Shown piece after piece: positions 50,859-53,141 of a stretch of 64,000 nt of DNA (positions are counted from its first letter, which is position 1; every line of letters begins with the position of its first letter). The notes under the pieces were generated by a model. It had not been told where the DNA came from. It did not search any database and was given only the letters and a program-made list of their open reading frames with translations. The stretch is from Thermosynechococcaceae cyanobacterium MS004 (GTDB taxonomy: Bacteria > Cyanobacteriota > Cyanobacteriia > Thermosynechococcales > Thermosynechococcaceae): the NCBI GenBank assembly GCA_022402525.1, contig JAKRSB010000133.1, forward strand, positions 1 to 64,000, given 5' to 3'. The position numbers and the translations under genes are program-made.

Positions 50859-50930
50859 GGGCGATTAGCACAGTGGTAGCGCACTTCCTTCACACGGAAG
50901 GGGTCACGTGTTCGAGTCACGTATCGCCCA
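50859..50930 (+). tRNA. tRNA-Val(CAC), at the island boundary
   Basis: 72-nt cloverleaf: acceptor GGGCGAT/ATCGCCC, D-arm GCAC...GTGGTAGCGC, anticodon stem CTTCC/GGAAG with loop TTCACAC (anticodon CAC), T-arm ACGTGTTCGAGTCACGT, discriminator A. Its 3' part (50884 on) is duplicated exactly at 53093. Confidence 0.97.
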
Positions 50931-50932
50931 TT
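50884..50932 (+). repeat. Putative att site, tRNA-side copy (49 bp)
   Basis: From the anticodon stem through the acceptor 3' end and two bases beyond, this 49-bp segment is identical to 53093-53141. Such tRNA 3'-end duplications mark tyrosine-recombinase integration. Confidence 0.85.
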
Positions 50933-51053
50933 GGTTGGGGAACCATACGCAGTAAGGCTTTTGGGAGTTCTAGACAACTTCTGAAGGTCTATTTTGCTGT
51001 CAATAAGGCAACGAGTCTAGGCCGTTAAGGGTTGTTTGGAGGATTAGCAGCAG

Positions 51054-51206
51054 ATGATCCGAGCGTCCAAACACATCCATAGCCTAAGCCCAAAGTCTAA
51101 GCAAGATTTCGTTTTGAGTCGCGTTGCCAGATACTTTGACGTTCCCCACAGCGCTTTTGGTCGGCTGTTCAAAAACTGGAGTATTGAGCAGAGAGGACAG
51201 TGCTAA
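51054..51206 (+). CDS. Small island frame, 50 residues, unknown
   Basis: The first frame inside the island. GGAGG lies about 11 nt before its ATG. The sequence includes VLSRVARYFDVPHSAFGRLF, weakly like a helix-turn-helix, and is basic. It ends TAATG, overlapping the next small frame by one base. May be a remnant of a longer mobile-element gene; no family recognised. Confidence 0.35.
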   Translation: MIRASKHIHSLSPKSKQDFVLSRVARYFDVPHSAFGRLFKNWSIEQRGQC

Positions 51207-51310
51207 TGGCAAACTTTAACCTGACCCACTTCTTCAAAATCATTGAGGGCAGCGGCGTATCAGAGGCGATCGCCCAATGTTCTCTGAATGGCTCAATTGA
51301 TGCCAGTTAA
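51206..51310 (+). CDS. Small island frame, 34 residues, unknown
   Basis: Begins at the TAATG overlap with the preceding frame (MANFNLTHFFKIIEGSG...). Ends inside the C-terminal end of the convergent 71-residue frame. Could be real by coupling or a decayed fragment; weak. Confidence 0.25.
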   Translation: MANFNLTHFFKIIEGSGVSEAIAQCSLNGSIDAS

Positions 51311-51508
51311 ACAAGGATTTGGCGTCAACACCAGCGCTTGGTAAGGCTTCAGGCTGTCTTTAGGAGCAACCGTGGCAATCAGAGAGTAGATGTGGCTTGC
51401 GGCCCCAGCATGGGGTGAATGCATGATGATCTGCTCTAAAGATGGGGCGATCGCCACGGGTGCAACCGAAGTAATGGAGCTTGTCCGAGCAATAGTTTGA
51501 GTCATCAT
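51293..51508 (-). CDS. Small island protein, 71 residues, unknown
   Basis: Starts MMTQTIARTSS with GAGG 7 nt upstream, a sound start. The middle is Ala/Val/Pro-rich (SVAPVAIAPSLEQIIMHSPHAGAASHIYSLIATVAP) and the end is LTPNPCLTGIN with one Cys. No membrane segment and no family I recognise. It is divergent from the small-gene operon beginning at 51731, sharing a 220-bp regulatory region. Confidence 0.5.
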   Translation of the reverse strand: MMTQTIARTSSITSVAPVAIAPSLEQIIMHSPHAGAASHIYSLIATVAPKDSLKPYQALVLTPNPCLTGIN

Positions 51509-51590
51509 TGATAAGCCTCGCTTGGGGCTAGACAGCGCTTGAACTTGTCAGGGTTTGGGGCGCTGTCTTTTTGTTTGACTAAATTTAATA

Positions 51591-51702
51591 TGCCTGTTAT
51601 CAAGCTTAATATCAATAATCTAGTGATTAAACTTATCGCAGTTAACTGGCTTAATCTATAGATAGACCTTATGCCTGTTAACAATTGTTTTTTGCCTGTA
51701 AA
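51591..51702. promoter_or_regulatory. TGCCTGT repeats and palindrome upstream of island operon
   Basis: Three copies of TGCCTGT(T/A)A at 51591, 51672 and 51693 (the last two 21 bp apart, two helical turns) plus the palindrome AACAATTGTT at 51680-51689 lie between divergent island genes. A candidate operator for the small basic protein encoded just downstream. Confidence 0.4.
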
Positions 51703-51730
51703 CTTAGAGGTGCTGAGTTAATGCCAATGA

Positions 51731-51955
51731 ATGCCCAAAGGGAACCCTAATCCTGTTATTCCACCGGAGTTTAAGGAAAGGCAGTTTAAACGCAGCGATG
51801 GTACGACTGAGCCACTAGCCGAAAAAATCTTAGCCGTGAGGGTTTCTGCTGAAGTCGATAAGGTTGTGAGATCGCTTCCCAAAAAAGCAGCATGGCTCCG
51901 GCGCGTCATCACCGAAGCTGCACAGCGTGAGCTGATGCAGGATGGTGAGACATGA
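51731..51955 (+). CDS. Small basic island protein, ribbon-helix-helix-like
   Basis: 74 residues starting MPKGNPNPVIPPEFKERQF, a common opening of small cyanobacterial proteins. The later part (ILAVRVSAEVDKVVRSLPKKAAWLRRVITEAAQREL) has a strand followed by two helices, the ribbon-helix-helix pattern of antitoxins and small regulators. First gene of a tightly packed operon; its TGA overlaps the next ATG by 4 nt. Confidence 0.75.
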   Translation: MPKGNPNPVIPPEFKERQFKRSDGTTEPLAEKILAVRVSAEVDKVVRSLPKKAAWLRRVITEAAQRELMQDGET

Positions 51956-52242
51956 CTGAACGATGGACAGATGAAACCCTAGATCGGTTTGCCTCAACGG
52001 TGGCCACATTTGTCGCTGCCAGCAATGAACGCATGACCCGCATTGAACAAGATGGAGAGCGTTCAAAACGTGAAAGTGATGAACGGTTAACCCGTATTGA
52101 GCAATTGGTTGAGTCAAATAACCACTTTCTAGAAGCCTTTGGGCAGGATGTGAAACAGCTCACTCAAAAAATAGACAGGTTAGCTGACACAACGGATCAA
52201 GTCGTTCGACAGATGGCAGCACCCACATCCAGCGCAAACTAA
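51952..52242 (+). CDS. Coiled-coil island protein
   Basis: 96 residues, almost entirely helical with heptads (MTRIEQDGERSKRESDERLTRIEQLVESN...QDVKQLTQKIDRLADTTDQVVRQM). It contains two imperfect copies of RxTRIEQ. Similar short coiled-coil proteins often accompany DUF29 genes in cyanobacteria. ATGA overlap with the upstream gene implies coupled translation. Function unknown. Confidence 0.7.
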   Translation: MTERWTDETLDRFASTVATFVAASNERMTRIEQDGERSKRESDERLTRIEQLVESNNHFLEAFGQDVKQLTQKIDRLADTTDQVVRQMAAPTSSAN

Positions 52243-52248
52243 GAAAGG

Positions 52249-52323
52249 ATGGATGTGACCACGCGACTGTCTGCTCTCAATCGAAAAGTGGACGCGATCG
52301 CCACTCATTTGGGGGTGAACTGA
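52249..52323 (+). CDS. 24-residue island frame
   Basis: ATG 52249 lies 6 nt after the preceding stop; encodes MDVTTRLSALNRKVDAIATHL and ends TGA inside TGATG. It reads like the end of another coiled-coil protein and may be a remnant of one. Confidence 0.35.
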   Translation: MDVTTRLSALNRKVDAIATHLGVN

Positions 52324-52339
52324 TGAAGGATGGTGAAGG

Positions 52340-52774
52340 ATGACCCAAGTTACAAAGACCTTATATGAAGCCGATTTTGTGCAATGGTCGGATCGCACTG
52401 CTCAGCTACTGCGAGAACATCGGTTTGCAGATCTAGACCTAGACCACTTAATTGAAGAGATCGAAGACTTGGGGAATCGCCACAGAGATGCACTAGAAAG
52501 CCAATTAACAAGGCTATTGATGCATCTCCTGAAGTACGAATTTCAGCCTGAACATCGTTCGAGTAGCTGGCTAGCTTCTATCAAGGAGTCTCGCAAGCAG
52601 ATTAAACGCCTGTGCCGTAGATACCCCAGTCTCAAGCCCTACCTTGAACAATGCTGGGAAGGTTGCTATGTGGACGCGATTGAAGATGCTAGCGATGAAA
52701 CTGGACTTCCCCAAGACCAATTTCCAGCAAAATGCCCTTATACGGTCGCAGAGGTCTTAGATGAAGGATGGTGA
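52340..52774 (+). CDS. DUF29 family protein
   Basis: 144 residues with the DUF29 pattern: YEADFVQWSDRTAQLLREHRFADLDLDHLIEEIEDLGNRHRDALESQLTRLLMHLLKYE... , W-containing SSSWLASIKESRKQI, and CPYTVAEVLDEGW. DUF29 proteins are abundant in cyanobacteria, often in multi-copy and near mobile DNA; the function is unknown. It is the only clearly named family on the island. Two GGTGAAGGATG-like repeats precede the start. Confidence 0.85.
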   Translation: MTQVTKTLYEADFVQWSDRTAQLLREHRFADLDLDHLIEEIEDLGNRHRDALESQLTRLLMHLLKYEFQPEHRSSSWLASIKESRKQIKRLCRRYPSLKPYLEQCWEGCYVDAIEDASDETGLPQDQFPAKCPYTVAEVLDEGW

Positions 52775-52777
52775 ATC

Positions 52778-53011
52778 ATGACCACCACTGCCTAGCCCGA
52801 TAGATTAGACCGGATTGAGGCGCTTGTAGAGAGTAACGCCCGTGCCATTGCTGAACTATCTCAGAACCAGTTAAGGATGATGCAGGAATTCTCAGACTAT
52901 CGAAGGGACATGCTAGAAACCCGTGCCGATATCCAAGAAATGCAGGCTGAAGTTAGAGGGCTGCAAACCGAAAACCGTCGCATCCTGGATCGGGTGTTTG
53001 GGGAACAGTGA
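52778..53011 (+). pseudogene. Coiled-coil protein gene broken by an early stop
   Basis: ATG 52778 follows the DUF29 stop by 3 nt. Codon 6 is TAG (52793), after which the frame continues cleanly for 71 codons as a coiled-coil: DRLDRIEALVESNARAIAEL ... LDRVFGEQ, then stop at 53009. A single C-to-T change (CAG to TAG) would explain it. No in-frame ATG or GTG directly restores the start. Either a pseudogene or read by an unusual mechanism. Confidence 0.7.
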
Positions 53012-53092
53012 ACCTACCCCGAAATCTACCCCGCTCATTTATTGACAATGCTCAAAAGCTTTTCTGTGTAAAGCCTCTAGCCTTTAGTGCTT

Positions 53093-53141
53093 CTTCCTTC
53101 ACACGGAAGGGGTCACGTGTTCGAGTCACGTATCGCCCATT
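53093..53141 (+). repeat. Putative att site, distal copy (49 bp tRNA-Val 3' part)
   Basis: Exact copy of 50884-50932, 2,209 bp away in the same orientation. It lacks the acceptor 5' strand and D-arm, so it is not a tRNA gene. It closes the island. Confidence 0.85.

Follow-up and report, generated by a model that had tools for sequence, protein, structure and literature searches.

A short integrase-less island at a cyanobacterial tRNA-Val gene, probably the internally deleted derivative of a satellite-like element

Results

An island bounded by tRNA-Val(CAC) and a copy of its 3' part

The window, a stretch of 64,000 nucleotides from Thermosynechococcaceae cyanobacterium MS004, carries one copy of tRNA-Val(CAC) as detected by ARAGORN, followed by a group of small genes (Table 1). 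The first-pass annotation had claimed that an exact 49-bp copy of part of this tRNA gene lies 2,209 bp downstream in the same orientation, and a repeat search returned precisely this arrangement. A perfect match of this length is far above chance level, and the 49-bp core occurs twice in total in the 4.93-Mb draft genome when up to three mismatches are allowed. The absence of a recombinase between the repeats was also borne out: the ORF list and family profile searches gave no integrase or transfer families among the island ORFs, and the integrases that the genome does possess are all on contigs other than C40, which holds the window. An island formed by a tRNA-targeting tyrosine integrase is delimited by a tRNA gene and its displaced 3' fragment, as is the case here, and has an internal integrase gene, which the window lacks and relatives have.

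Related strains were compared in search of an empty site, as the annotation had proposed. In a congener (G002) tRNA-Val(CAC) is unoccupied, but its neighbours are unlike those in the window, and the site therefore does not count as strictly empty. A strictly empty site flanked by the window's genes was not found in the relatives, where the aminotransferase and downstream genes are on contigs separate from tRNA-Val(CAC). Upstream of tRNA-Val(CAC) there is an aminotransferase gene in the window as against an SDR-family gene in both congeners (L005, L006), indicating that the locus has been rearranged within the genus.

Table 1. Features of the island in the window
Feature	Position	Strand	Basis
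tRNA-Val(CAC), target gene restored by the island att core	50859..50930	+	ARAGORN
Left att core, 49-bp repeat from the anticodon stem to 2 bp beyond the tRNA 3' end	50884..50932	+	Repeat search
Conserved left end; putative integrase arm sites GGCTTTTGGGAG (50956-50967) and TGTCAATAAG (50998-51007)	50931..51041	+	Alignment of 19 left ends, survey, motif positions
Small ORF, 50 aa, no family	51054..51206	+	ORF list, family searches
Primase N-terminus fossil, 34 aa	51206..51310	+	Match to L048 primase gene
Divergent small ORF, 71 aa, no family	51293..51508	-	ORF list, family searches
RHH-like small protein, 74 aa, common to most members, full-size and mini	51731..51955	+	Comparison
Coiled-coil protein, overlaps the RHH stop, ends at TAA	51952..52242	+	Comparison with L049
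DUF29 protein, 144 aa, intact	52340..52774	+	Pfam PF01724, E=4.3e-53
Second coiled-coil gene, TAG at codon 6	52778..53011	+	Sequence, Pfam search
Right-end motifs, CTACCCCG twice (53014-53033) and TTTATTGACAATGCTCAAAAGC (53038-53059); putative integrase arm site	53014..53059	+	Conservation, position
Right att core, displaced tRNA-Val 3' fragment, 49/49 identical	53093..53141	+	Repeat search

Cargo genes

The DUF29 and coiled-coil genes that the annotation had placed in the cassette were both recovered, the former through its Pfam match; yet both coiled-coil genes are interrupted by in-frame nonsense codons. In the first, the homolog in L049 reads through the TAA (52240-52242), beyond which the in-frame remainder occupies 52243-52323; in the second, the TAG is at 52793-52795. 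An XhlA-like identity for a related coiled-coil protein was rejected, at 21.3 bits against a curated cut-off of 34.7.

The ribbon-helix-helix (RHH) label for the product of 51731-51955 is plausible and rests on sequence pattern. The protein had no Pfam, NCBIfam or credible PDB profile match, and AlphaFold2 gave a low-confidence model (pLDDT 67) with two C-terminal helices. The DUF29 gene is 83% identical to its counterpart in L052, which ends at a tRNA-Thr 3' fragment, and cargo modules are common to different islands of the family. A 30-bp stretch of the RHH gene 3' end (51927-51956) is found again at 52315-52344, before the DUF29 gene, and at 52753-52782, before the last coiled-coil gene. 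This recurrence suggests that modules may have been swapped or duplicated at shared homology.

The ends of the island define a family

The left end is approximately 110 bp long and begins exactly at the tRNA 3' end. A sequence model of it gave 68 matches in 30 of the 390 genomes of the class, among which the window's own left end had the second-best score. Forty-two of the 67 left ends examined begin within 2 bp of a tRNA 3' end, where 0.002 would be expected; the targets are tRNA-Val (CAC, TAC and GAC), tRNA-Pro (CGG and GGG), tRNA-Ala(GGC) and tRNA-Thr(GGT). A full-length integrase frame follows the left end in 11 of the 67, the remainder being followed by fragments of one or by none. Left ends were 81.4% identical within a genome across different tRNA genes, as compared with 74.1% at the same tRNA across genomes, and this clustering by genome gave p=0.0005 by label permutation, uncorrected for the relatedness of the genomes.

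At the other side, the motif TTATTGANAAT lies 54-58 bp upstream of the displaced tRNA copy in 16/16 elements that have both, whether mini or full-size and with or without an integrase gene, as arm sites of an integrase would be expected to do. For the window, the motif TTATTGA begins at 53039 and the right repeat begins at 53093. Inverted copies of the left motifs GCTTTTGGG and TCAATAA are found in the right end. In their conservation, fixed position and inverted arrangement, the left and right motifs would fit arm-type sites of an integrase.

Full-size relatives carry a tyrosine integrase behind the same left end

In the congener, a stretch (L048; G002:C500) that is 92-93% identical to the window left end runs straight into a gene for a tyrosine integrase of 369 aa, with a primase gene next. 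In relatives, homologs of this integrase likewise follow the left end at tRNA genes, which upholds the earlier reading of the layout as that of a tRNA-targeting tyrosine recombinase. Eight relatives have an integrase gene bounded by tRNA repeats. L160 (10.3 kb) and L161 (9.0 kb) also carry primase/helicase genes; L162 (17.7 kb) carries primase/helicase, terminase large subunit, type I restriction-modification, PIN and Uma2 genes besides its integrase; L174 (6.4 kb) has a broken integrase; and L238 (9.6 kb), L242 (13.5 kb), L251 (13.0 kb) and L252 (6.8 kb) have the integrase. The RHH gene is close to the right repeat in seven of the eight. Among the scanned proteins of the annotated full-size relatives, primase/helicase and terminase were seen and conjugation genes were not, and the gene content of L160, L161 and L162 is satellite-like. 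For L048 a prophage parent is possible, since a tail tape-measure gene lies near its contig end. The L162/L163 element (G008:C107, ~5.1-22.8 kb), which sits at tRNA-Pro(CGG) and combines integrase and terminase genes with an apparently complete type I restriction-modification set, is likely to be a defence-carrying satellite.

An enzyme predicted to be compatible with the window ends is present in a congener, in L048. The closest integrase to the L048 family in the window genome is 42.5% identical; this tyrosine integrase (L171; G000:C131:117018-118064) lies behind tRNA-Val(GAC), and neither a matching left end nor a repeat accompanies it.

Sister mini-islands

Mini forms span 0.8-2.3 kb, and the tRNA repeats of the family are 44-52 bp long. 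In G001 (Acaryochloridaceae cyanobacterium RU_4_10, name inferred), 52 bp of the 3' part of tRNA-Val(TAC) are repeated perfectly 1 kb downstream, the pair enclosing RHH and coiled-coil genes, while at tRNA-Ala(GGC) of the same genome a 46-bp repeat encloses a Uma2 gene and is followed in tandem by a second left end with an RHH gene. Further bounded integrase-less cases were found in Petrachloros at tRNA-Val(CAC) and tRNA-Val(GAC), and in Acaryochloris CRU_2_0 at tRNA-Thr(GGT) and tRNA-Pro(GGG). Several sister islands (L005, L051) have degenerate right repeats, and L094 retains an N-terminal fragment of the integrase.

Weak left-end remnants were seen elsewhere in the window genome, at G000:C13:83598-83672 (L267), exactly behind tRNA-Pro(GGG), and at G000:C131:157336-157407 (L273). 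In the same genome, an RHH gene lies 1.95 kb behind the tmRNA gene (L057, G000:C32:105000-120000; tmRNA at locus positions 4419-4808), and 14 bp of the tmRNA 3' end are repeated 2.64 kb downstream. L089 and L117 contain comparable tmRNA cases.

Discussion

Origin by internal deletion

The ORF at 51206-51310 matches the L048 primase gene (DNA 92% identical over 38 bp, E=4e-9; 52% over 27 aa). The position of this fossil between the left end and the RHH gene argues that the window island is an internally deleted derivative and, taken with the integrase fragment in L094, that mini-islands arise by internal deletion; a decayed element, one of the origins offered by the first-pass annotation, is borne out by these remains. 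We consider it very probable that the island derives by internal deletion from a tRNA-integrating, phage-satellite-like element, that its layout is like that of a cis-mobilizable element, and that its ends would be usable if a compatible integrase arrived.

The full form would have run from the tRNA gene through the left arm, tyrosine integrase, primase/helicase, further genes, RHH gene and right arm to the tRNA 3' copy. A tyrosine integrase of the L048 family would have made the tRNA duplication, recombining in the anticodon arm. Comparison with the relatives shows the loss of the integrase, of most of the primase and of the genes after it; what stays is the left end, the primase fossil, the RHH/coiled-coil/DUF29 module, the right end and both att cores. 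The retained ends could then serve as substrates if a phage or satellite brought a compatible integrase. A deletion junction shared among mini-islands, which would show that they move as units, was not found. Repeated independent deletion is the simplest reading of this, and on the same ground shrinking in place would be slightly favoured over integration in an already short form.

Recent mobility, movement in trans or a relic

The 49/49 repeat and the near-consensus left end suggest recent mobility, with ends that may still be able to recombine. Set against the nonsense-bearing cargo, the perfect repeat and the second-ranked left end would fit a recent insertion or stranding of an island whose cargo is decaying. 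The nonsense codons might be taken to mean that decay of the cargo predates the att repeat, but this rough argument was judged too weak to be used.

We give somewhat less than an even chance to the reading that a full element integrated, then underwent deletion and mutation, and is now recognised by no integrase. Such a history would account for the two nonsense codons, the primase fossil and the degenerate right repeats of sister islands, but sits poorly with identical repeats, a near-consensus left end and a right motif at standard spacing.

It is less probable still that the minis excise and integrate in their current short form with an integrase supplied by larger relatives or temperate phages, their arms being kept by selection for mobility. 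Mini and integrase-bearing forms with similar ends do occur in the same genomes and in relatives, left ends group by genome across different tRNA targets, several minis have perfect att repeats, and the window left end ranks as high as it does despite the nonsense codons in the cargo; against this, minis at different tRNA genes have no common deletion junction, the window genome has no close integrase, and no mini was found in viral contigs or plasmids, searches of IMG/VR having found neither the left-end motif nor relatives of the RHH gene. For the window island itself helper-driven movement is possible, because its ends look intact. As a general account, we think it unlikely that miniature (0.8-2.3 kb) cyanobacterial tRNA-gene elements are moved in trans by the tyrosine integrase of larger satellite-like relatives, one conserved set of arm sites serving Val, Ala, Pro and Thr tRNAs. 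If this were true, the mini elements would be satellites of satellites.

Local duplication of the tRNA gene without an integrase, which the annotation had itself raised against its reading and to which the closeness of the repeated fragment to the gene might point, has a negligible probability and was rejected, because the 3' part alone was copied, the flanks are unlike, and equivalent layouts occur at other tRNA genes with internal integrase genes.

Relation to known systems

Integrase-less tRNA islands are an already known kind, and a description of the present family was not found in the open-access literature searched. Since the family is recognisable by its ends, independently of an integrase gene, surveys anchored on integrases would tend to overlook the mini forms. 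Because related genomes hold full and mini forms whose ends are alike, the choice between a dead relic and movement in trans can be tested, and near-identical arms at different tRNA genes in one genome raise the question of how the elements switch tRNA target.

PICI, PICMI and tycheposons have been named as phage satellites (PMC11389934). The full-size relatives of the window island likewise lie in tRNA genes with integrase and primase/helicase, one of them with terminase and defence genes, whereas the window island lacks integrase, primase/helicase, terminase and defence genes. A phage satellite is mobilised and packaged by a helper phage; no helper was identified here, and scans of viral contigs were empty. 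MITEs and CALINs (PMC11389934) offer an analogy, being short derivatives that have retained their recombination ends and rely on the enzyme of a relative, but their ends are terminal inverted repeats or attC sites, as opposed to att cores with putative arms in tRNA genes.

Cis-mobilizable elements (CIMEs) are by definition decayed ICEs or IMEs, which have likewise shed their integration genes while attL and attR persist in a tRNA gene (PMC5704250). In the window attL and attR are present, as the 49-bp pair with left end and right motif, and integration and transfer genes are absent. With its integrase and most of its primase lost and its ends retained, the island is CIME-like in layout and formally lacks the ICE or IME parentage of the term (PMC5704250): the parent here would be satellite- or phage-like, and the derivatives are just 0.8-2.3 kb. 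The tandem arrangements in relatives L049, L050 and L162 echo the tandem accretion of CIMEs, which are mobilised in cis when joined in this way to an integrase-bearing element.

Among published systems, the integrase-less ssrA islands of Dehalococcoides come closest (PMC3146451); they occur beside integrase-bearing islands and are bounded by repeats of an RNA-gene 3' end, as in the window family. Those islands use a serine recombinase and a single site, the tmRNA gene, with a 20-bp repeat (PMC3146451), whereas the window family is tied to a tyrosine integrase, several tRNA genes and repeats of 44-52 bp.
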